In this document: positions 1,602 through 12,829 of the stretch, piece by piece | How the letters are laid out: each line of letters opens with the position of its first letter | How positions within the stretch are numbered: position 1 is the stretch's first letter | DNA from: Aequorivita sp. | Lineage (GTDB): Bacteria; Bacteroidota; Bacteroidia; Flavobacteriales; Flavobacteriaceae | DNA length: 64,000 bases | Assembly (NCBI GenBank): GCA_024637015.1 | Contig: JAGXGE010000032.1 | Coordinates: forward strand, 1-64,000 | Direction: 5' to 3' | Notes under the pieces: generated by a model | The model's input: only the letters and a program-made list of their open reading frames with translations | What the model was told of the DNA's origin: nothing | Databases searched by the model: none | Translations under genes and position numbers: made by a program

Positions 1602-4600
1602 ATGCAACCAACACCCCTAAAACCCAGAAAGGCAATAAACAAAGCCTTTTTAAAAATAAAACCTAACCGTACCGAGATTGAGGTCTTTAAGACCAACTTG
1701 ATTGAATTGCTGGACCGCACCAACGATACCGAAAGCGAGGAGTTCCACAAAAACCTGGTTTCGGATTTCCTAAAACGCACATACTACGAGCCCAATCACT
1801 ATATAAACACCAAAGGCAGGAACGATCTGGTTATCCACAACGGCAACAAGGCAAAGACCACCGTGGGCGTTATCATTGAAGCCAAAAAGCCTACCAATAA
1901 AGCCGAAATGGTTTCCAAGGATAAACTCAACACCAAAGCCTTTCAGGAGTTGGTGCTTTATTACCTGCGGGAGCGCATTACCCATAAAAATCTGGAGGTA
2001 AAATATTTGGTGGCAACCAACATTAATGAGTGGTTCATCTTTGATGCCAATAGCTTTGAAAAAAGCTTCGCCCAAAACAAAGCTTTGGTAAAACAGTTTA
2101 CGGATTTTGAGGGTGGCAGGATGGCAGGCAAAACAACCGATTTCTTCTACAAGGAAATCGCCGAACCCTTTATAAACTCACTAACACAGGAAATAGAGTT
2201 CACCTATTTTGATATTCGCGAATATGAAAAACCGTTGCGCAATGACAATCCAAAGGATGACAACATTCTCATCGCATTGTATAAACTCCTTTCGCCGGAG
2301 CATCTATTAAAACTTCCTTTTGCCAATGACAGCAACAGTCTGGACAAACGCTTTTACGGCGAACTGCTCCACATTATAGGTCTCTCAGAAACCAAGGAGG
2401 GCAGTAAAAAACTAATAGCCCGCAACAAAGCCGGGGAACGCAATACGGGCAGTCTGCTGGAAAATGCCATCATTCAGTTGGACAGTCTGGACAAGATAAA
2501 CAGACTGGACAACCCGTTGCATTTTGGTGCTACCCAAGACGAACGGCTGTTTAACGTAGGCTTGGAGCTTGCAATTACTTGGGTAAATAGAATTCTATTC
2601 TTAAAATTGTTGGAAGCACAACTCATAACATATCACAAAGGAGATAAAAGCTATGAGTTCCTCAGCATAGCCAAAATCCATAACTATGACGATCTTAATA
2701 GCCTCTTCTTTCAAGTGCTGGCAGCAAAGCATTCAGAACGCAATGAAGACATAAAAGACAGCTTCGCCAAAGTGCCTTACCTAAACAGTTCGCTTTTTGA
2801 ACCTACGGGCATTGAGCACGGCACTCTGTTTATAAGCAACCTGCGGGATGACAAAACCATTCCCATCTATTCCGCCACGGTGCTAAAGACTGATAAGGGC
2901 AAAAAACGCAGTGGCAACCTAAGCACTTTGGAATACCTCTTTAAATTTTTGGACGCCTACGACTTTAGCAGCGAAGGTTCCGAAGAAATACAGGAAGACA
3001 ACAAAACCCTTATAAACGCCTCGGTGCTCGGGCTTATTTTTGAAAAAATAAACGGTTATAAAGACGGCTCGTTCTTTACGCCCGGCTTTATCACGATGTA
3101 TATGTGCCGCGAAACCATCCGCAAGGCGGTGGTGCAAAAGTTTAACGAAACCAAAGGGTGGCAGTGCAAGGACATAGATGCGCTTTATGATAAAATTGAG
3201 ACAGGCGACAGGGCAGAAGCCAACCAGATTGTAAACAGCCTAAAAATATGCGACCCCGCAGTGGGCTCCGGCCATTTTCTTGTTTCTGCCCTCAATGAAA
3301 TGATTGCCATAAAGAACGATCTAAAAATATTGCAGGACCGCGATGGTAAGCGTTTAAAGGAATACCAGTTTGAAGTGGTAAATGACGAACTGATAGTAAC
3401 CGACGAAGACGGCGAGCTCTTTGAATACAACCCAACAAACAAGGAAAGCCAGCGAATCCAGCAAGCGCTCTTCCACGAAAAGCAAACCCTTATTGAAAAT
3501 TGCCTGTTTGGGGTGGATATAAACCCAAACTCAGTAAAAATATGCCGCCTACGGTTGTGGATAGAGCTACTTAAAAACGCCTATTATAAAGTAGTTCCCT
3601 CCCCGTCGGGGAGGGCGGAGGGTGGGGACTCCCCAGCAGGCGAGCTGGAAACATTACCCAACATAGACATAAACATAAAACGCGGCAACTCCCTAATAAG
3701 CCGCTTTGCGCTAGATGCCGACCTTAAAAAGGCATTAAAAAGTAGCAAATGGACCATTGATAGTTACCGTATAGCAGTGGACACCTACCGCAACGCCCAG
3801 AACAAGGAGCAGAAGCACGCCATGGAAAAGCTGATTGCCGATATAAAAAGTGATTTTAGAAGCGAAATTTCCAGCAACGACCCCAAGGTGAAAAAACTCA
3901 CCAAGCTAAAAGGCGAACTCTTTGGCATGACCAACCAGACCCAAATGTTTGAAATGGGCAAAAAGGAAAAGGCAGCCTGGAACAAAAAGCTAAAGCAACT
4001 GGCAGAAGCCACCACCAAGCTGGAAACCGAAATAGTGGAAATAAAAAACAACAAGATTTATGAAGATGCCTTTGAATGGCGCTTTGAGTTTCCTGAGGTG
4101 CTGGATGAAAATGGGGATTTTGTGGGCTTTGATGTTGTAATTGGGAATCCGCCATATATTTCTATTCAAGAGTTAAAGAAAGACGACTCTAACAAAGTTC
4201 ATTATTACGCTAAGAATTATCATACCGCCGCAAAAGGCAATTTTGATATTTATCTTCCTTTTATCGAAATGTCTTTTGCAATAACTAATACAAAAGGTAT
4301 AATTGATTTCATTATGCCCTCTCTTTGGATCTATAACGAGTATGGAGTAAATTTAAGGAACTTACTTCTGTCTAATAGATATTTGTCAAGATTTTTAGAT
4401 TTTGGCTCTAGCCAAGTCTTCGATGATGCTACGGTATATACAGCTTGCCAACAATTTATAAAAAAATTAAGCAAGGGTTTTAAGTATGCAAAGATTGACG
4501 TCGAAAATTTTGGTCAAGAAACGTGGAATGAAATAGAATACGATAGCCTAGAACATTCTAACTGGAATTTAGCTACTCATGAAGTGACTTCAATTTTAAA

Positions 4601-5432
4601 TAAGTTGCAAAAGGATTCTTTTAAGCTTGGTGATCTTTGCTCTATTTTTGTTGGTATACAGACAAGTGCTGATACTTTTTATCACTTAGCAAAAAAGGAA
4701 AATGGAAAATACTACAGCAAAATTCTAAAATGTGAGATTGAACTTGAAGAAGATTTGTTAAAACCTATTGTTACAGGAACGGATGCCAAAAGATATTTGC
4801 AACCTCAAATAAAGAAGTATTTGTTGCATCCTTACACTGATGAGGGAGTTTTAATTGACATAGAAAAAATAACAGAGACTTTACCCGAAACTTATCAATA
4901 TTTCAAAAAGAATGAGAAATTTCTTAGAGATAGAGAGAAAGGAAAAATGAATCACGAGAATTGGTATGGATATAATTATCCAAAGAATCTAAAAAAGCAA
5001 ACAATTTCCAAAATCGGAGTTGCACAAACAGTACAAAGCCTACAATGTTTTTTAGATGAAGAAGGTGAGTATTTTTTTCATAATGTAAGAGTTAATGGTA
5101 TCTTTCCTTTAGACGAAAGTTTAAAACTAAAATTCGTATTAGGTTTATTAAATTCATCAACTCTCAATTTTTATTTTATAAATACAGCAAAACCAAAGGA
5201 CAACGGTTTTTATGAGGCCAACAAACAGTTTATTTATCCTTTACCGATTAAAATAGCGACCGAAGCCATTCAAGAGAAAATTATAAGTTTAGTAACAAAT
5301 ATCTTAATCAAGAAAAAAGAGAGCACCAAAGCTGACACAAGCAATCTGGAAGCCCAAATAGACCAGCTAGTCTATCAACTCTACAACCTAACAGAGGAGG
5401 AGATTGCTATTGTGGAGGAGGCTACAAAGTAG
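1602..5432 (+). CDS. Type IIG-like restriction-modification enzyme (nuclease plus N6-adenine methyltransferase)
   Basis: A 1,276-residue fusion. The N-terminal ~200 residues carry a PD-(D/E)XK-type pattern (NDLVI near 75, then IIEAKKP near 92), expected for the cleavage domain. The methyltransferase core has the SAM-binding motif DPAVGSGHF near residue 551 and the catalytic NPPY motif near residue 849, typical of N6-adenine enzymes. The last ~400 residues resemble a TaqI-like target-recognition domain with a terminal coiled helix. One chain would therefore recognise, methylate and cut DNA, as in Eco57I/BREX-PglX-like families. Two oddities are a palindromic element inserted in frame at 3595-3650 and a sharp fall in G+C after ~4140, in the recognition domain. 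Confidence 0.88.
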   Translation: MQPTPLKPRKAINKAFLKIKPNRTEIEVFKTNLIELLDRTNDTESEEFHKNLVSDFLKRTYYEPNHYINTKGRNDLVIHNGNKAKTTVGVIIEAKKPTNKAEMVSKDKLNTKAFQELVLYYLRERITHKNLEVKYLVATNINEWFIFDANSFEKSFAQNKALVKQFTDFEGGRMAGKTTDFFYKEIAEPFINSLTQEIEFTYFDIREYEKPLRNDNPKDDNILIALYKLLSPEHLLKLPFANDSNSLDKRFYGELLHIIGLSETKEGSKKLIARNKAGERNTGSLLENAIIQLDSLDKINRLDNPLHFGATQDERLFNVGLELAITWVNRILFLKLLEAQLITYHKGDKSYEFLSIAKIHNYDDLNSLFFQVLAAKHSERNEDIKDSFAKVPYLNSSLFEPTGIEHGTLFISNLRDDKTIPIYSATVLKTDKGKKRSGNLSTLEYLFKFLDAYDFSSEGSEEIQEDNKTLINASVLGLIFEKINGYKDGSFFTPGFITMYMCRETIRKAVVQKFNETKGWQCKDIDALYDKIETGDRAEANQIVNSLKICDPAVGSGHFLVSALNEMIAIKNDLKILQDRDGKRLKEYQFEVVNDELIVTDEDGELFEYNPTNKESQRIQQALFHEKQTLIENCLFGVDINPNSVKICRLRLWIELLKNAYYKVVPSPSGRAEGGDSPAGELETLPNIDINIKRGNSLISRFALDADLKKALKSSKWTIDSYRIAVDTYRNAQNKEQKHAMEKLIADIKSDFRSEISSNDPKVKKLTKLKGELFGMTNQTQMFEMGKKEKAAWNKKLKQLAEATTKLETEIVEIKNNKIYEDAFEWRFEFPEVLDENGDFVGFDVVIGNPPYISIQELKKDDSNKVHYYAKNYHTAAKGNFDIYLPFIEMSFAITNTKGIIDFIMPSLWIYNEYGVNLRNLLLSNRYLSRFLDFGSSQVFDDATVYTACQQFIKKLSKGFKYAKIDVENFGQETWNEIEYDSLEHSNWNLATHEVTSILNKLQKDSFKLGDLCSIFVGIQTSADTFYHLAKKENGKYYSKILKCEIELEEDLLKPIVTGTDAKRYLQPQIKKYLLHPYTDEGVLIDIEKITETLPETYQYFKKNEKFLRDREKGKMNHENWYGYNYPKNLKKQTISKIGVAQTVQSLQCFLDEEGEYFFHNVRVNGIFPLDESLKLKFVLGLLNSSTLNFYFINTAKPKDNGFYEANKQFIYPLPIKIATEAIQEKIISLVTNILIKKKESTKADTSNLEAQIDQLVYQLYNLTEEEIAIVEEATK
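3595..3650 (+). repeat. Palindromic element inserted in frame in the restriction-modification gene
   Basis: CCCTCCCC-GTC-GGGGAGGG is a perfect 8-bp inverted repeat (3597-3615). It is followed by GGGGA-C-TCCCC (3624-3634) and CCAGC/GCTGG arms (3633-3648), with TTCC/GGAA at the ends. The element is read through as about 18 Pro/Ser/Gly-rich residues (PSPSGRAEGG is the start) between two otherwise conserved parts of the methyltransferase. Its composition is far more G+C-rich than the flanks. This resembles the protein-tolerated palindromic insertions known from Rickettsia, and similar G-rich repeats occur in Flavobacteria. Confidence 0.75.
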
Positions 5433-5516: not shown

Positions 5517-6503
5517 ATGCAAAACGAAAAATGGAATGAAATCTGCTTTTTACTCTCCGAAAACATTCGGACTGACATTAGTGAAAGTGATTTTGAACAG
5601 AATGTAATACAAGCATTGCGCGTTTTGGATTGGAAAGAATATTCAGGAGATATTATAATTCGTCCTTCATATCAAGTTGGTGCTGCCAATAAAATTACAC
5701 CTGATTTTGTAGTTCAATCTTCAGAAAATGTAAAATTGTTTGTGATAGAAATTAAGCAACCCAATATTCCGCTAAATTCAAGATTTCAACAACAATTGTT
5801 TTCATATATGCGTCAGCTAAAACTAGAATATGGGATTTTAATTGGACAAGGAATTCAAATCTTTTATGATGGAGCTCTTTCAAATCAAGAGGATCCGATA
5901 CTTTTAGAAACAATCAAGTTTACAAAAGAAAATGAAAAAGGATTAAAATTTGTTGAATTGTTTGCAAAAGAAAGTTTCAATGGAGAATCTTTAAAAATAT
6001 TTACACTAAGTGAACTTAAAAAAATAAACAGAAGAGAAGAACACAAACATTTAATAAAAAAAATACTTTCAGAAAGTTTCCAAGAAAGGCTTTCTGAATT
6101 AATAAAACAAGATTTTTTAAACGAATATGATGGAGAATTAATAGATTCTGTACTCAACGAATTAGACATTAAAATAAAGCAACATAATACAGAAGTCAGT
6201 AAAACGGATTTACATAAAAGCCAATTCAAAGAATCAAAAAATATTGACTATTCCAATGGAATATTACCAATTGGATTGAATCCATCATCAGAATATGAAT
6301 TTAAACGCCGTCTTTTAATAACAAAAACTGCATACATAACAACTTTTTATAAAAATGGAACGTCCAAACAAAGAACATGGAATGCTCAGAGATTTAGTGA
6401 AAGCTCTGGGGTTTTGGGAAATTTAAGATCACGTCCAGAGTTTAGAAATGGAGAATGGCAAAAATTAGGAATAGAAAAAGTTTTAGTTTCCATTGAGAAA
6501 TAA
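5517..6503 (+). CDS. HsdR-N-like nuclease-domain protein
   Basis: A 328-residue protein. The N-terminal ~150 residues look like the type I restriction R-subunit N-terminal domain: a strand with TPDFVV near 61-66, then FVIEIKQP near 75-82, which gives the D...ExK catalytic triad, followed by a Gln-rich helix (FQQQLFSYMRQ). There is no helicase portion. The middle is Lys/Glu-rich and helical. The last ~60 residues form a separate compact module with several aromatics. It lies 84 bases after the restriction-modification enzyme on the same strand, so it may be an accessory nuclease of that system. Function is inferred from the fold signature only. Confidence 0.65.
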   Translation: MQNEKWNEICFLLSENIRTDISESDFEQNVIQALRVLDWKEYSGDIIIRPSYQVGAANKITPDFVVQSSENVKLFVIEIKQPNIPLNSRFQQQLFSYMRQLKLEYGILIGQGIQIFYDGALSNQEDPILLETIKFTKENEKGLKFVELFAKESFNGESLKIFTLSELKKINRREEHKHLIKKILSESFQERLSELIKQDFLNEYDGELIDSVLNELDIKIKQHNTEVSKTDLHKSQFKESKNIDYSNGILPIGLNPSSEYEFKRRLLITKTAYITTFYKNGTSKQRTWNAQRFSESSGVLGNLRSRPEFRNGEWQKLGIEKVLVSIEK

Positions 6504-6814: not shown

Positions 6815-7810
6815 ATGCAACCCGAATCATTTAAAAAAGGAGACTTATTCGAAAAATTTGTTGAAGATGAATTATTTAAAGCCACCGAATACACTTTAAT
6901 ACATAGAACCAATACTTACGATCAAAACGAATCTAGGTATGCGGAAGATACGCTAAAACCAGATTTTAAATTTAGATGCAAAAGTACTCAGCAAGAATTT
7001 TATGTAGAAGCCAAATACCGTTCAGGGTTTAATGCAGATAATAAGATTGATGTAATTAGCTATACTCAAATAGAACGTTTTAAAGTTTTCCAACAAGAAG
7101 AAAATATACCAATTTTTATAGCAATTGGTTATGGAGGTATTCCTGATAATCCTGATAATGTAAGTTTAATTCCATTAGACCAGTTAAGCTATTTAGAGCT
7201 TTACCCTACATTTTTAAAGCGTTACAATGTCAATAAGGGACTGATTGATAGCGCTTCTTTAAATTTACCAAGAAAGCAATCCAAAGTAAAATCTAAAAAG
7301 CCTTTGGAAAAGCAGCCAGAAAAACATGAAAGCGCTGTTAAGCACACTACAGTAGCACCTTTTAAAAACAACAAAATTCTAGTTGCAGCTGGTATTGGCT
7401 TGGTTTTATTGGCTTTTCTACTTTTTAATGTCTTCAACACTTCCATAGAAGGGACTTTAAAACAAAAAACAACGGAATATTACAGCACCCTTCATTCAGG
7501 AAATATAGATGCTTTGGAAAATTTCATTAACCCGAGTGTGGATAAATGGTACAGTCAAACGGACGTTACATTAGAGGAGATTAAAGAAGACACAAGAAGA
7601 TACATAAAACGCCATCCAGCAACAAGCACCGACATTCAATGGGACACTTTTAAAGTAACCCCCTTAAATGATGGCCATGCCGTAACCTACACTATGATTT
7701 ATAAATTACTAAAAGAAAACAAGGGCAAGGACATTATTTATCATTTAAAAATACACGCTGTTTGGGATAAAGACTTAAAAATAAAGAGTCTTTATGAGGA
7801 GAAAATTTAA
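6815..7810 (+). CDS. Membrane-anchored PD-(D/E)XK nuclease-like protein
   Basis: A 331-residue protein in three parts. Residues 1-130 look like a restriction-endonuclease-like fold with Asp50 (LKPDFKF), Glu65 and Lys67 (YVEAKYR) in the D...ExK arrangement. Then come a Lys-rich linker and one membrane helix (about residues 188-208, IGLVLLAFLLFNVF). The remainder (~120 residues) resembles an NTF2/SnoaL-like cone: a helix with YYSTLHSGN and several beta strands ending in a basic tail. The predicted topology puts the nuclease-like part in the cytoplasm and the C-terminal part in the periplasm. I know no characterised protein with this order. It could be a DNA-related sensor or a defence effector. 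Confidence 0.65.
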   Translation: MQPESFKKGDLFEKFVEDELFKATEYTLIHRTNTYDQNESRYAEDTLKPDFKFRCKSTQQEFYVEAKYRSGFNADNKIDVISYTQIERFKVFQQEENIPIFIAIGYGGIPDNPDNVSLIPLDQLSYLELYPTFLKRYNVNKGLIDSASLNLPRKQSKVKSKKPLEKQPEKHESAVKHTTVAPFKNNKILVAAGIGLVLLAFLLFNVFNTSIEGTLKQKTTEYYSTLHSGNIDALENFINPSVDKWYSQTDVTLEEIKEDTRRYIKRHPATSTDIQWDTFKVTPLNDGHAVTYTMIYKLLKENKGKDIIYHLKIHAVWDKDLKIKSLYEEKI

Positions 7811-8028: not shown

Positions 8029-8388
8029 ATGCAAGCAACAGAGGAAGAAGTTAAAATATTTTTACAGGAATTTATTGCTAAAATAAACGCTAATATAGGT
8101 GGAGTTGGTCTTGTTATAAAAAGAGAGAGAGCAGCTAACCTTCAGACAATATTGGATTTAGAGTTAACAAATATTACTGTCAGAGAACATTTAAAAAAGC
8201 TAACTTATAAAGATTTCTACAAAGGACCTACGGAAGAGAGTGATGGTGGTCCAAGCTTGTGGGAATTTGGCAAAGAAATAAAAGGCAAAGAAGTCTATAT
8301 AAAAATCACTCTGGGATACTTAAACAAGCCCACGATTTGCATCAGTTTTCATTATCCAGTAAGAACAATTAAATACCCATTCAAATGA
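8029..8388 (+). CDS. MqsR/RelE-fold-like toxin candidate
   Basis: 119 residues from the ATG at 8029. An upstream in-frame TTG overlaps the promoter, so the ATG is preferred. The C-terminal half has the strand pattern of small mRNA-interferase-like toxins: LTYKDFYKGP, a Gly/Asp-rich loop (SDGGPSLWEFGKEI), VYIKITL and CISFHYP with a late His. The gene overlaps the next one by ATGA (8385-8388), and that neighbour has an antitoxin architecture, so the pair is almost certainly a toxin-antitoxin operon. An RNA-cleaving activity is inferred from fold resemblance only. Confidence 0.7.
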   Translation: MQATEEEVKIFLQEFIAKINANIGGVGLVIKRERAANLQTILDLELTNITVREHLKKLTYKDFYKGPTEESDGGPSLWEFGKEIKGKEVYIKITLGYLNKPTICISFHYPVRTIKYPFK

Positions 8389-9401
8389 TTTACGAACAAA
8401 TAGAAAGCCCTTTTTCGACAGGTAAAGCGAATTTGCTAAAGAAATTGAATGTCTTAAACTTTCGTAAGAATGAATTTGAGATAACTGAACATTTTTATGT
8501 TTGTGAAGATACCAACGAAGAATTTACTACTAGTGAATTAGATGAGATAAATATAAATCAAGTCTACAATCAATATAGGGATAAGTTTGGTTTGCCTTTT
8601 CCTGATCAAATCAAAAAAATTCGAGAAAAGTATGGTGTTTCGGCAATTAAAATGTCTGAAATATTAGGCTTAGGAGCTAATAGTTATCGGCTTTATGAAC
8701 AAGGAGAGGTTCCAAGTGTTGGAAATGGTAGACAAATTTTAGGCGCAGAAGATCCCGAGACATTCAAGCGTTATTTAATATCAAATCAAGAATTGATTGA
8801 GCCTAAAGATTTTCAGAAATTAATTAAAAGGGTTGATGAATTAATTGACCTTGAAAGAATTAATAAATATCATAATCATGATTTGAAAGAATTATTTGGA
8901 AAAATAGCTTCTGATCAATATACAGGTTATAAGATGCCAAGTATTGAGAAAATTTCTCATATGATTCTTTTCTTTTCTGAAAATGCAGAAACGTGGAAAA
9001 CTAAACTTAATAAATTATTATTCTATACTGACTTTTTAGCATTTAAAAATTCTGGATTTGGTATTTCGGGATTAGACTATCGAGCTATTCAATATGGTCC
9101 AGTTCCTTCAAAATATGGAAAATTATATGATGAAATTAGTAAAGGAGAATGTCTTAATCGAGTTTGTATTGAGGAACGAGATTATGAAGGGTCATTTTTC
9201 ATTCCAAAATTAACTTTCAATGAAAAGCTTTTTGATGAATTTGAAATAGGAATAATGAAAACGGTATCAGATAGATTCAAATGGCACAGTGCAAATGAAA
9301 TAAAAGAGTTGAGCCATGAAGAATTAGCATGGAAAGAAAATAAAGAAGAACAAAAGATAATTAGTTATAAAGATTATGGATTTAATCTTCAGACTATCTA
9401 A
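8385..9401 (+). CDS. Panacea-domain (DUF4065) antitoxin with HTH
   Basis: A 338-residue protein. The N-terminal ~60 residues resemble a small adaptor domain (HFYVCEDTNEEF). Residues ~66-105 form a MqsA/XRE-type helix-turn-helix (IKKIREKYGVS, then SEILGLGANSYRLYEQG). Residues ~185-325 form the Panacea/SocA-like domain, with KLNKLLFYTDF, YRAIQYGPVPSKYG and a final SHEELAW helix. Panacea antitoxins are known to neutralise many unrelated toxins. The HTH suggests binding at the operon's own promoter. The start codon overlaps the toxin stop, so translation is coupled. Confidence 0.82.
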   Translation: MIYEQIESPFSTGKANLLKKLNVLNFRKNEFEITEHFYVCEDTNEEFTTSELDEININQVYNQYRDKFGLPFPDQIKKIREKYGVSAIKMSEILGLGANSYRLYEQGEVPSVGNGRQILGAEDPETFKRYLISNQELIEPKDFQKLIKRVDELIDLERINKYHNHDLKELFGKIASDQYTGYKMPSIEKISHMILFFSENAETWKTKLNKLLFYTDFLAFKNSGFGISGLDYRAIQYGPVPSKYGKLYDEISKGECLNRVCIEERDYEGSFFIPKLTFNEKLFDEFEIGIMKTVSDRFKWHSANEIKELSHEELAWKENKEEQKIISYKDYGFNLQTI

Positions 9402-9412
9402 AAAATATAATT

Positions 9413-9703
9413 ATGGAAAATGATAAAAAAAATGGAGGAGGAAATGAAAATGTTCCAGGACAAAATAAAGAGTTCAAAATTTTAGTAAATGCAAGAGAGA
9501 AAATTTGGACGGAAAAAATGATAACTTTTGATGAAGTTGTAATATTAGCTTTTGGAGTTGTTTCTTCAGACCCAAATGTTTCTTATACAGTCACCTATAA
9601 GAAAGGTGATAATAATAAGCCTGAAGGAATTATGGTAAAAGGAGATGAAGTAAAAGTTAAAGATGGAATGAGATTCAATGTTACACAAACTAATAGATCA
9701 TAG
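9413..9703 (+). CDS. Ubiquitin-like protein (multiubiquitin family, single domain)
   Basis: A 96-residue protein with a flexible Gly/Asn-rich head and one beta-grasp domain: KEFKILVNA, a helix with FDEVVILAFG, then YTVTYKKG and VKVKDGMRFNVTQT. This pattern matches the prokaryotic multiubiquitin family, which usually precedes an E1-like gene. The C-terminus is NRS, with no Gly-Gly to activate. The gene starts 11 bases after the antitoxin and overlaps the E1-like gene by 26 bases, so the two are probably translated together. It would be the modifier, or a scaffold, of the following enzymes. Confidence 0.8.
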   Translation: MENDKKNGGGNENVPGQNKEFKILVNAREKIWTEKMITFDEVVILAFGVVSSDPNVSYTVTYKKGDNNKPEGIMVKGDEVKVKDGMRFNVTQTNRS

Positions 9704-10865
9704 TCCAGACCTTAAGAAATTAAGGGACGAAGGATATGAAATTAAACTTGAGAATAATCATATTCTTATAAGTAGCGTTCCATATATTAATTCTAGTAGG
9801 CAAATTAAATTAGGAACCCTAGTAGCTGTACTTACAATAGCGGGAAATAAATCAGGTAAACCAGATAATCATGTCGCTTACTTTATAGGCGAACAACCAT
9901 GCAATAAAGATGGCTCGATAATTTCTTCCCTAGTTCATGGCCAAAATAGAACGGTTTTAGCTGGTGAAATTCAGGTTGATAGATCCTTTTCTAATAAACC
10001 ACAAGGTGGTTATGTAGATTATTTTCATAAAATGACTACATATATAAATATTATAAGTGGGCCTGCACAATCGATGGATAACTCTGTAACTCCGAAAACC
10101 TTTAGACTGGTTGAGAGTATTGATGGTGATTCAGAATTAAAATATCCTGATACAAATTCGAGTAGAGCTGGAATATCTTTTATTTCTGATAAATTAAAAG
10201 CACAAAAAGTTGGAATTATTGGTGTAGGTGGAACAGGATCGTATTTATTAGATTTTGTTTCAAAGTGTCCGGTAAAAGAAATAAGAATTTTTGACAATGA
10301 TGAATTCTTGCTTCATAATGCTTTTAGAGCCCCCGGCGCACCAGAAGAAGAAGTTCTTAAAGAGACACCAAAGAAAACTCATTATTTTCAAAGGATTTAC
10401 TCAAGAATGCATAGTAATATAGTCGTAAGGGATAAGTATATTATTGAATCAAACTTAAGTGAGTTACAAGATTTGAATTTCGTTTTTATTTGTATTGATA
10501 TAGGAAGTATAAAACAAATAATCATTGATTATTTATCAGTAAATAAGATTAGTTTTATAGATGTTGGAATGGGAATAGAATTGGCACCAAATAATTCTTT
10601 AATAGGAATGATTAGAACAACAACAAGCAAAAATGGCAATATAGATCATATATATTCTAATGGACGTATTTCTTTTGCAGATGGAAATGAAGATGATGAA
10701 TATGGTCAGAATATTCAAATTGCAGAATTGAATGCACTAAATGCATCTTTAGCGGTAATAAAATGGAAAAAGCTATGTGGCTTTTACTATGATGCAGAAC
10801 AAGAAAAGCATAGTCTTTTTTCAATTGATGATAATACAATATTAAATGAAGATTTTGAAACATAA
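9678..10865 (+). CDS. E2-like (DUF6791) plus ThiF/E1 fusion enzyme
   Basis: A 395-residue fusion. Residues 1-150 match the DUF6791-type domain that accompanies bacterial E1 enzymes (VPYINSSRQIKLGTL, HVAYFIGEQPC with Cys75, GGYVDYFHKMTTY). Residues 165-395 are a ThiF/E1 adenylation domain with the nucleotide loop GVGGTGSYLLD (182 on), an acidic strand end IRIFDNDEF and a downstream Arg (FRAPG). FICIDIGS contains the candidate catalytic Cys. E1 enzymes adenylate a Ubl C-terminus and pass it to E2, so one chain could do both. The gene is embedded between the Ubl and DUF6527 genes with overlaps at both ends. Confidence 0.85.
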   Translation: MLHKLIDHSPDLKKLRDEGYEIKLENNHILISSVPYINSSRQIKLGTLVAVLTIAGNKSGKPDNHVAYFIGEQPCNKDGSIISSLVHGQNRTVLAGEIQVDRSFSNKPQGGYVDYFHKMTTYINIISGPAQSMDNSVTPKTFRLVESIDGDSELKYPDTNSSRAGISFISDKLKAQKVGIIGVGGTGSYLLDFVSKCPVKEIRIFDNDEFLLHNAFRAPGAPEEEVLKETPKKTHYFQRIYSRMHSNIVVRDKYIIESNLSELQDLNFVFICIDIGSIKQIIIDYLSVNKISFIDVGMGIELAPNNSLIGMIRTTTSKNGNIDHIYSNGRISFADGNEDDEYGQNIQIAELNALNASLAVIKWKKLCGFYYDAEQEKHSLFSIDDNTILNEDFET

Positions 10866-11277
10866 ATTTGTCGATAATATACCAGATATAATAGAGGATA
10901 AAGTTTTATATGTTTCTATGGAGTATGAAACTGTCATTCATAAGTGTGCTTGCGGCTGTGGCAACGAAGTTGTTACACCTCTTTCACCAACGGATTGGCG
11001 TTTAATTTTTAATGGAGAAACTATTTCTCTTGAACCATCTATTGGTAGTTGGAGTTTAGATTGTAAATCACATTATTGGATTACCAACAATATTGTCAAT
11101 TGGTCATCTACATATAGACAAAAAGAGATTAATAAAGTTAGAAGGGTAGATTCTGAAGATAAGTATGAATACTACAAAATAAAAGGAAAAATGGAACAGC
11201 CGATGCCTGAAGAGATTGAAAAAGGAAAACAGAAGCAATCTTTTTGGCGGAGATTACTTTCTAAATTGTTGAGATAA
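10846..11277 (+). CDS. DUF6527-type metal-binding protein of the Ubl operon
   Basis: A 143-residue protein whose first half holds a CACGCG knuckle (near residues 31-36), a TDWRLIFNG strand, SLEPSIGSW, and then a DCKSHYWI motif. Three or four Cys plus the His could bind zinc. This order matches the family I know as DUF6527, repeatedly found next to multiubiquitin and DUF6791-ThiF genes. Its biochemical role is unknown to me; a ligase-like or protease-like partner has to be considered. The C-terminal ~30 residues are charged and basic. The start codon overlaps the E1 gene by 20 bases. Confidence 0.75.
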   Translation: MKILKHKFVDNIPDIIEDKVLYVSMEYETVIHKCACGCGNEVVTPLSPTDWRLIFNGETISLEPSIGSWSLDCKSHYWITNNIVNWSSTYRQKEINKVRRVDSEDKYEYYKIKGKMEQPMPEEIEKGKQKQSFWRRLLSKLLR

Positions 11278-11287
11278 TATATCATTA

Positions 11288-11971
11288 ATGGCTGCTAAAC
11301 GTGAAAATAGCAATTTTTATAGCTTATGGCATGACTTCATTCATTGCTCGAATTGTTATGGCATAGTTAAATTACACAAAGGTATTTGTCCTATTTGCAT
11401 GCATAACCATATCAAAAATGTAAGACATATAGAAATTCCAAGAGAGGGAGGTACGGTTGAAAAAATACCTCAAATGACTTTGATGGGTGCTATACCTTAT
11501 ACTGTTTATTCCTTACTCATATTAATTCAAAATGAATGGGAGCGCCCTCAACTGAATACGTTTTCTTTTTTAGAAGATAGTCATAAACCATCAGAAAAGC
11601 TTGTTATTGTGATTTTATTTTGGAGCCTGTTCGAATCATTAATGGAAGAGTTTTTTGCAGATTCTATGAAGGAATTGCCAGAAAAAATAAAAACTGATTT
11701 ATTAAAAAGGTACTTTTCAATTTCCATTAGAATGGAAAGACTCTATCCAATTCTGCATGATTCAAGGTTTAAAAAAGATTTCACTAAAGTTGGAAATGAA
11801 AATATAACAAAGTTTATAGAAAAAGTTCATAAGGCAAGAAATGAATTTATTCATGGCCAACCTGAAAAAATTACTGATGAATTGGTAAATGAAACTATTA
11901 AAATGCTAGATCCTGTTCAAAAAGTTTGGATTTCATTATATAATTTGAAGTGTGCTAGATATGATTTTTAA
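11288..11971 (+). CDS. Zinc-ribbon HEPN-domain protein (putative RNase effector)
   Basis: A 227-residue protein. The N-terminus has two CxxC pairs (Cys20/Cys23 and Cys34/Cys37), a zinc ribbon. Residues ~100-225 are all-helical and include ARNEFIHG (Arg184 to His189), the Rx4-6H signature of HEPN RNases. A long helical segment before it (FWSLFESLMEEFF) fits the dimer-forming helices of the fold. HEPN proteins are frequent RNA-cleaving effectors in toxin-antitoxin, abortive infection and CRISPR systems. The gene starts 10 bases after the DUF6527 gene on the same strand, so it is probably part of the Ubl operon. Function is inferred. Confidence 0.7.
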   Translation: MAAKRENSNFYSLWHDFIHCSNCYGIVKLHKGICPICMHNHIKNVRHIEIPREGGTVEKIPQMTLMGAIPYTVYSLLILIQNEWERPQLNTFSFLEDSHKPSEKLVIVILFWSLFESLMEEFFADSMKELPEKIKTDLLKRYFSISIRMERLYPILHDSRFKKDFTKVGNENITKFIEKVHKARNEFIHGQPEKITDELVNETIKMLDPVQKVWISLYNLKCARYDF

Positions 11972-12427: not shown

Positions 12428-12829
12428 TTACTTCCCCCCAATCAACCTCTCCAACCGCCCCATCATATCGTCCTTCTCTTTTAGCATCCGTTCGTAAAGA
12501 GCGATTTTTTCGTCATGAAGTTTCATTAATTGGTCAATAGGATGGAAGGTAGGGTTGTTATTTATTACTGCTGCGTTATCGTTAAAAGTGTTGGAAATAA
12601 CATTCACCGCCTGCTCCTCATCAAAATTCCTAAAAGCCTCTACGGGTATATGCAGCACTTGCGATATTTGTTGGAGTAGGGGTGTTTCAACCTCCTCTTT
12701 TTGTTCCAGCAAGGAGATTTTCTTTTGGTTCCATTCCTCGCCCAGCTCGTAGGCCAGCGCCTCCTGCTTAATCCCAAGCATCTCGCGAAAGCGTTTTATG
12801 TTGCGGCCTTGGTGTATTTTTGTCTCCAT
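12428..12829 (-). CDS. XRE-family HTH regulator with coiled-coil tail
   Basis: A 133-residue protein. Residues ~8-70 are a classic XRE DNA-binding domain (GRNIKRFREMLGIKQEALA, then KKISLLEQ and VLHIPVEAFRNF). A linker rich in Asn follows (VISNTFNDNAAVINNN), then a Lys/Glu-rich helix (MKLHDEKIALYERMLKEKDD) that should form a coiled coil. Proteins like this are common stand-alone regulators in Flavobacteria. The gene faces the decayed end of the defence operon and may mark its edge. Codon use is richer in G+C than that of its island neighbours. Confidence 0.8.
   Translation of the reverse strand: METKIHQGRNIKRFREMLGIKQEALAYELGEEWNQKKISLLEQKEEVETPLLQQISQVLHIPVEAFRNFDEEQAVNVISNTFNDNAAVINNNPTFHPIDQLMKLHDEKIALYERMLKEKDDMMGRLERLIGGK

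Follow-up and report, generated by a model that had tools for sequence, protein, structure and literature searches.

A ubiquitin-like operon of Aequorivita with a serine-ended modifier, a JAB-less E1-like protein and an upstream MqsR:MqsA-Panacea pair

Introduction

Ubiquitin-like conjugation is usually treated as defined by a C-terminal glycine on the modifier and a cysteine in the activating enzyme (E1). The bacterial Bub system reportedly works through an ester intermediate. A further bacterial arrangement, operon type 6e of Iyer et al. (2006), joins a poly-ubiquitin-like protein, an E1 domain and a metal-binding protein Y, and note b to that type, in the available part of the text, records E1 versions in which a distinct domain X replaces JAB (PMC1779556). 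Here we analyse such an operon at positions 9413-11971 of the window, by which we mean the whole stretch of 64,000 nucleotides from Aequorivita sp. (assembly GCA_024637015.1, contig JAGXGE010000032.1, positions 1 to 64,000 of the forward strand). It encodes a ubiquitin-like protein (Ubl), a protein that fuses domain X (DUF6791) to an E1-like ThiF domain (X-E1), a DUF6527 protein and a HEPN-like protein.

The core of this operon is of a known, little-studied kind. Its Ubl, X-E1 and metal-binding Y protein correspond to variant b of type 6e, and the conserved Ubl, DUF6791-ThiF and DUF6527 neighbourhood that had been proposed from the letters alone is borne out by that description and by the relatives reported below. 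The available part of PMC1779556, by contrast, mentions no HEPN, no MqsR partner and no serine end on the Ubl. We read the core as a mobile, JAB-less relative of Bub, in which X-E1 would activate a Ser-ended Ubl for attachment to a target protein and the HEPN-like protein would be an accessory (probability roughly 0.6). Within the literature searched, the selected Ser terminus, its match with the loss of JAB, the association with an MqsR:Panacea pair and the infrequent HEPN partner may be new.

Results

Layout of the locus and comparison with known systems

Four open reading frames (ORFs) were called on the + strand between 9413 and 11971; neighbours overlap by 26 and then 20 bases, and 10 bases separate the last two, exactly as the sequence-only reading had laid them out. 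Its account of the operon's content stands for these four genes; it had overlooked an upstream MqsR:MqsA-Panacea pair and the serine at which the Ubl ends. The core features are as follows.

9413-9703, + strand: single-domain Ubl, 96 aa (Pfam Multi_ubiq, E 1.8e-15)
9674-9700, + strand: last nine codons of the Ubl, tail FNVTQTNRS, with the invariant terminal Ser codon at 9698-9700
9678-10865, + strand: E1-like fusion of DUF6791 (domain X) and ThiF, 395 aa (Pfam DUF6791, E 1.4e-53; ThiF, E 3.3e-12)
9705-10154, + strand: domain X (DUF6791), a possible scaffold resembling a conjugating enzyme (E2) (Pfam stretch, residues 10-159)
10701-10703, + strand: codon of Tyr342, a residue kept in 80 of 80 rows, which falls in the poorly modelled loop 338-344
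10846-11277, + strand: DUF6527 protein, 143 aa, with candidate metal ligands CxCxC and C-x2-H (Pfam, E 3.2e-24)

The profile matches listed bear out the beta-grasp Ubl, the E1-like ThiF domain and the metal-binding protein recognised by its CACGCG stretch, all of which had been proposed before any search was run.

The best Foldseek match of X-E1 is Citrobacter BubCD (9eav, E 3.5e-15), which is also matched by sequence, over the ThiF part only (E 7.7e-10); the protein is homologous to BubCD in both sequence and fold. Because BubCD is the closest solved E1, we regard the operon as a JAB-less cousin of Bub (Citrobacter BubA/BubB/BubCD, PDB 9ea4-9eav), with which it shares a Multi_ubiq Ubl. DUF6527 is part of Bub neighbourhoods too, since on an Enterobacter roggenkampii plasmid it follows an E1 nearly identical to BubCD (E 1.2e-253). 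Unlike Bub, the window shows no JAB/JAMM peptidase fused to the E1 by Pfam or by motif (Pfam gives no Prok-JAB match), has no BubB or Prok-E2_E-type gene, separate or Ubl-fused, within 9413-11971, and encodes a Ubl whose tail has Ser at its end in place of Gly. The Ubl family profile matches a second solved structure, the ZDHYS365 multi-ubiquitin protein (PDB 9cd2), at E 1.1e-47. That protein belongs to the same family and ends in VTQTDKS, but it is a 222-aa multi-domain protein, whereas the window Ubl has a single domain.

The serine end of the Ubl

Where a canonical ubiquitin-like modifier has a C-terminal Gly, native or exposed by a peptidase, the window Ubl has Ser. Ser is the last Ubl residue in 94 of 94 sequences (98 collected, less the unrelated ThiF proteins L004-L007). 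For codon counts these were reduced to 92 by dropping L001 and L002, copies of the window and of L018, and then to 84 by dropping eight loci identical over 120 bases at the Ubl end; the remaining 84 of 84 are distinct there. Phe at position -9 and Thr at -4 of the tail are each kept in 83 of the 84. A second set of 24 loci gave the same result: once the copies L117 and L118, L116 (which lacks an E1) and L102, L105, L106 and L107 (in which no Ubl was found) had been removed, all 17 remaining loci, which are new and include three viral contigs, end in Ser.

The 26 bases common to the Ubl tail and the start of the E1 gene provide an unusual natural test of selection on this residue. An overlap of this length recurs wherever the E1 aligns from its first residue: in 90 of 90 sequences, two of which duplicate loci that are in the count, and in another 15 of 15 loci. 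This recurrence takes the four-gene observation beyond chance. Across the 84 distinct loci the last Ubl codon is TCG in 33, TCA in 31, TCT in 18 and TCC in 2, and the overlapped E1 residue varies with it (R in 33, H in 31, L in 18, P in 2). The Ser codon begins at the third position of an E1 codon, where T and C are synonymous; in every locus that base is T. The E1 frame thus tolerates change at the overlapped codon and the Ubl Ser does not, a pattern of codon use which indicates that the terminal Ser itself is under its own selection.

JAB-type operons present the other state. In nine of nine that were sampled, chosen from 168 plasmid records, Gly occupies the corresponding Ubl position; JAB was identified by Pfam in L099 and by its motif in the E1 alignment in the other eight. 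The Ubl ends in TEG or TTTEG in L099, L113 and L115 and in TTEG plus three further residues in L109, whose Ubl is unannotated, while in L108, L110, L111, L112 and L114 the Gly is internal, before a fused E2, at a presumed cut site. Among the loci sampled, loss of the JAB peptidase and the change of the tail from Gly to Ser appear to coincide.

The E1-like enzyme, domain X and the DUF6527 protein

The ThiF part retains an adenylation site: G182, G184, G185, G187, D206, D208, R217 and K233 are kept in 80 of 80 E1 rows, and T186 in at least 90% of them (L055 was left out of this alignment). It departs from canonical E1 enzymes, which carry a catalytic Cys in the crossover loop, in that none of the conserved columns of the ThiF part is a Cys. 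In an AlphaFold model of X-E1, whose mean predicted local distance difference test (pLDDT) score is 89.5, residues 338-344 fall below 50 and precede the helix 349-366; this region, which holds the invariant Tyr342, is presumably where E1 crossover loops lie. One BubCD entry in the PDB is titled D104A/Y370F. Counted along the alignment, and assuming the two-residue shift suggested by D104, Y370 is the Tyr of the stretch E-R-G-Y-I-T-G, a position that holds Tyr in nine of nine JAB-type rows. The correspondence between Tyr342 and Y370 is uncertain because the aligner offset the two.

It is tempting to see in these features a separate Ubl branch, and we put the idea forward tentatively: the DUF6791-E1 systems would have a Ubl produced in finished form with an obligatory Ser end, an E1 that lacks a conserved Cys and might hold the Ubl as an ester on Tyr342, and no deconjugating peptidase, JAB having been lost with the change from Gly to Ser. 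If so, conjugation there would differ from eukaryotic ubiquitin systems in the C-terminal residue, the carrier bond and the reversibility of the reaction.

The lack of a conserved Cys and the non-Gly terminus also suit another reading, in which the Ubl C terminus is adenylated, or modified in some other way, by MccB- or TcdA-like chemistry of the ThiF enzyme and then acts by itself, never being transferred to a target. The 50 fold matches listed for X-E1 include MccB and PaaA, and the sequence matches include TcdA-type dehydratases. The best match, however, is BubCD, an E1 solved in complex with Ubl and BubB (according to the entry titles), and both the Ubl fold and the E1 layout are retained. 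We consider this reading improbable.

The sequence-only reading called the second protein an E2-E1 fusion. The E1 half holds; an E2 identity for DUF6791 is no more than possible. Domain X is modelled by AlphaFold with an alpha-beta4-(insert)-alpha layout, and its residues 10-84 are colinear with residues 12-85 of Prok-E2_E at a non-significant level (best hhalign P 0.16). A profile search of the PDB with domain X gave no match below E 0.7, the best being unrelated (E 0.71), and the Foldseek list for X-E1 is filled by E1 proteins. Cys75 stands at the E2-like site in 78 of 80 closer rows and is replaced by R, H or F in the diverged L012, L015 and L016; domain X lacks the conserved catalytic Cys of an E2. 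H65 and S105 are invariant in 80 of 80 rows. In a JAB/X-E1 alignment the invariant FS of domain X fell on the FS that forms part of the JAMM motif, which prompts the idea of a decayed JAB, although this placement carries no statistics. The HxH of the JAMM motif is absent from the four X-E1 rows.

The DUF6527 protein has five candidate metal ligands, C34, C36, C38, C73 and H76, that do not vary in 76 of 76 rows (L076 left out); the cysteines of CACGCG are among them. Its model is fairly confident (mean pLDDT 85), and its fold has no solved-structure match in the PDB (best E 1.1). Neither DUF6527 nor DUF6791 is named in the literature searched.

Distribution

Among 594 pattern matches from a scan of 84,980 species' genomes, at least 547 are stretches with a gene related to that of the E1; 80 loci were kept. 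DUF6791-type E1 sequences come from 13 named phyla and also occur on plasmids, making this a widespread bacterial branch with a Ser-ended Ubl in all examined and an E1 that has no conserved Cys. In all 94 sequences with a DUF6791-type E1 the Ubl gene comes before the E1 gene, and in 89 of them DUF6527 could be recognised behind it; for L016, which is among the five exceptions, the annotation does list DUF6527. Because phyla interleave in a tree of 80 E1 proteins, we take the operon to behave as a mobile unit. The E1 was matched in 115 plasmid records (a second plasmid listing, of 168 records, includes other ThiF proteins) and in seven viral contigs, one match being limited to the generic ThiF part; the phage collection gave none, and a single-protein query found no JAB-type E1 in viral contigs. 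Of 395 Bacteroidota genomes sampled, 14 match the E1 at E 1e-60 or better, two of them in the C-terminal part only.

The closest relative is that of Aequorivita antarctica (L018), whose E1 is 97% identical, and another genome of the same genus (G004) carries the operon as well. G004 also holds a second, diverged copy (L008, 861-3082) with a multi-domain Ubl of 221 aa and no HEPN gene.

Upstream genes

Two co-directional genes on the + strand extend the operon upstream of the Ubl.

8029-8388, + strand: MqsR-like toxin gene (Pfam MqsR_toxin, E 3.8e-05, 24.5 bits for a cut-off of 26.2)
8385-9401, + strand: MqsA-like antitoxin gene with a helix-turn-helix (HTH) and a C-terminal SocA/Panacea domain (PanA) (Panacea, E 1.1e-17, above cut-off)

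The ORF of the first opens at TTG 7999, with ATG 8029 as its likely start. The second protein also matches MqsA (E 0.0022, 18.5 bits) and CxxCG_CxxCG_HTH (E 1.3e-13, 50.9 bits for a cut-off of 61.8), both under cut-off. The two genes overlap by 4 bases and end 11 bases 5' of the Ubl. Between 8029 and 11971 neighbouring genes are never more than 11 bases apart, which makes a single transcript likely. The pair has the make-up of MqsR:PanA, a validated toxin-antitoxin pair in which Panacea has been proposed as the sensor: as the available part of PMC10440598 describes it, an MqsR toxin is joined by an antitoxin composed of an MqsA zinc-binding domain, an HTH and Panacea. There it is a two-gene system, whereas in the window the pair precedes a Ubl operon.

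In the window, L018, L019, L003 and L020 the Ubl gene is immediately preceded by MqsR and MqsA-Panacea genes; in the Hymenobacter loci L041 and L046 a single 124-aa gene separates them from it. Mapped on the E1 tree, which does not include L003, this arrangement needs two changes. Many other lineages have an HTH gene, an ImmA/IrrE-type peptidase gene or both upstream: of the 104 upstream genes scanned (158 were picked), 22 contain Peptidase_M78 and 27 contain HTH_3. MqsA-Panacea may therefore replace, in this lineage, the HTH and ImmA/IrrE-peptidase regulators of the relatives. The pair, and occasionally a HEPN-like protein, would tie Ubl signalling to toxin-antitoxin control. A recurring module of a different kind stands upstream of the Ubl in L011, L014, L061, L063, L084, L086, L090 and L093, with genes of about 260-300 aa, about 190 aa and about 1130-1150 aa; in L011 and L014 these are annotated as a sigma factor or regulator, a hypothetical protein and a UvrD-type helicase.

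A toxin-antitoxin pair directly upstream of the Ubl could also mean that the operon is addiction or stabilisation cargo, MqsR:Panacea protecting a mobile element on which the Ubl genes are passengers. The available part of PMC4963859 proposes stabilisation for the multiubiquitin cassette of Synechocystis pSYSX, a Ubl operon that likewise adjoins a toxin-antitoxin-type pair, and places 70% of Multi_ubiq proteins next to DUF955 toxin-antitoxin loci. The Synechocystis cassette differs from the window in its JAB-type E1 (L113) and in its toxin-antitoxin family, DUF955. Phage integrases are, among the families listed, the commonest downstream of the relatives (6 of 102 genes). The upstream module, however, varies between lineages, and conservation of the Ubl tail and of E1 residues across phyla argues for a function of the operon's own. 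That the Ubl genes are mere cargo we regard as doubtful.

Proposed function

If the core is a JAB-less relative of Bub, as we favour, the Ubl, encoded in finished form, would be adenylated on its C-terminal Ser by the ThiF domain, and domain X would position the Ubl or the acceptor. The DUF6527 protein, with its metal bound, would serve a structural or target-recognising role and help attach the Ubl to a target protein. Transcription in this lineage would start from the promoter of the MqsR:MqsA-Panacea pair, with the HTH antitoxin standing in for the HTH and ImmA/IrrE-peptidase regulators, and the likely role of the system would be in a stress or phage response.

Several observations weigh against this proposal. 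MccB, a ThiF-like enzyme that acts on a C-terminal Asn, makes a nucleotidyl-peptide. A ThiF-like enzyme that lacks thioester chemistry could make such a product here instead, and activity of the E1 on a Ser-ended Ubl is a step that we infer. Promoter-like sites are at or below chance level in the promoter scans, which included one for Bacteroidota promoters, and a terminator scan found no terminator-like site. A WYL (CapW-type) regulator occurs in 1 of the 104 upstream genes scanned; the available part of PMC13373217 places CapW or CapH+CapP beside 219 of 544 Bub operons.

The HEPN-like gene

The fourth gene of the operon has the following features.

11288-11971, + strand: accessory zinc-ribbon HEPN-like protein, 227 aa (HEPN_Apea, sub-threshold)
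11345-11398, + strand: its zinc ribbon, C20-C23 and C34-C37, by alignment with homologues
11837-11854, + strand: its RNEFIH (Rx4H) motif, by alignment with homologues

The HEPN_Apea match (E 0.0045, 17.8 bits) lies below the cut-off of 24.4; of the protein and its two homologues, 35% and 33% identical to it, two match in Pfam below cut-off and the third has no match. Both cysteine pairs and R-N-x-F-x-H are kept in the two homologues, and so in three of three, which makes the motif-based description as a zinc-ribbon HEPN protein with Rx4H well founded, as had been proposed from the window alone. We would expect it to act as a ribonuclease (RNase).

The same reading saw in this gene an RNA-cutting output of the system, which is not supported as a general statement. 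A phmmer search with the window protein places a HEPN gene after the operon in 2 of 81 loci (the window and the 80 kept loci), namely the window and L020, although some contigs end before the downstream position is fully visible. The two nearest relatives of a first search, with E1 identities of 97% and 85%, have none within 1 kb downstream. Of 16 genomes with an E1 match, a three-row profile finds HEPN in one, that of the window, and in none of the 15 others, of which G435 and G454 have a partial E1 match and G350 an E1 match with a stop. HEPN as the core effector is accordingly rejected in general, and we view the gene as an accessory of RNase type that a few copies would have gained.

The gene is nevertheless not confined to the window, since L020 and a Methylocystis rosea plasmid (L099) have it beside Ubl operons. 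The plasmid homologue is the only one among 72,556 plasmid records, the same record being found with all three homologues as query. It lies 1.6 kb from a JAB-type operon (Multi_ubiq / Prok-E2_E / JAB-ThiF / DUF6527), beside AbiV and DNA methyltransferase genes. Because such E1 genes are rare on plasmids this neighbour is suggestive, yet it is a single event. HEPN identities are 44% between L020 and Methylocystis, 35% between the window and L020 and 33% between the window and Methylocystis, while the core proteins of the window and L020 are 53-74% identical. The relatedness of the HEPN proteins does not follow that of the cores, so HEPN genes and Ubl operons have probably come together on more than one occasion; the link is rare and perhaps recurrent. 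HEPN was found in 1 of the 395 Bacteroidota genomes sampled, was not confirmed in any viral contig with a single protein and the three-row profile, and was not found in phages with the Methylocystis homologue as sole query. A second match, in G102 (E 6e-4, two stops), was too weak and was dropped.

The repeated pairing would fit a HEPN RNase that is a dedicated effector, held or released by Ubl conjugation, and so would the gene's place 10 bases after DUF6527 in the window, its matching place in L020 and the plasmid homologue so close to a Ubl operon. Clustering within islands also explains the three copies, however, as all lie within about 6 kb of large restriction-modification (R-M)-type methyltransferase genes (called by annotation in L099 and by motifs alone in L020), and the counts of 2 in 81 loci and 0 in 15 other E1-matching genomes, two of them partial, speak against an effector. 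We think a dedicated effector unlikely.

One locus, L021, has a Hypoth_Ymh gene downstream of the operon, a family that we take to belong with HEPN.

Neighbouring genes

The window contains a type IIG R-M gene at 1602-5432 (PADLOC, E 1.3e-261) and an HSDR_N-type nuclease gene at 5517-6503 (Pfam, E 6.2e-06). Given these two, 'defence island', the term used in the sequence-only reading, is a fair one. Just before mqsR, a 331-aa protein (6815-7810) shows a weak SnoaL-like match (0.0032) and, by eye, a nuclease-like N-terminus and a likely membrane segment.

Among the genes after DUF6527 in the relatives (102 scanned of 137 picked), resolvases account for 3, and no shared family beyond integrases and resolvases appeared among the 25 of 109 families listed. 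Individual loci have neighbours of other kinds. A TIR-TPR protein gene lies downstream of the A. antarctica operon (L018, 13120-14349). Upstream of the Allomuricauda operon (L019, 1628-5728) are genes for an ATP-binding, nuclease-like protein of 734 aa and a UvrD-like protein of 629 aa, a pair that by eye we take to be Gabija-like. The second gene after DUF6527 in L023 (11834-13123), on a contig labelled as an uncultured archaeon, encodes a transglutaminase-like (DUF553) protein. On a Nostoc plasmid (L115, 6236-9250) nucleotidyltransferase and SAVED-domain genes, presumably a CBASS-like pair, follow a JAB-type Ubl operon.

HTH genes that look homologous, both starting GRNxKRFREMLGIKQ, lie on the - strand at 12428-12829 in the window and at 13433-13858 in L020. 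In both genomes they flank the operon region on its right side, with different genes in between, and may mark an insertion hotspot.

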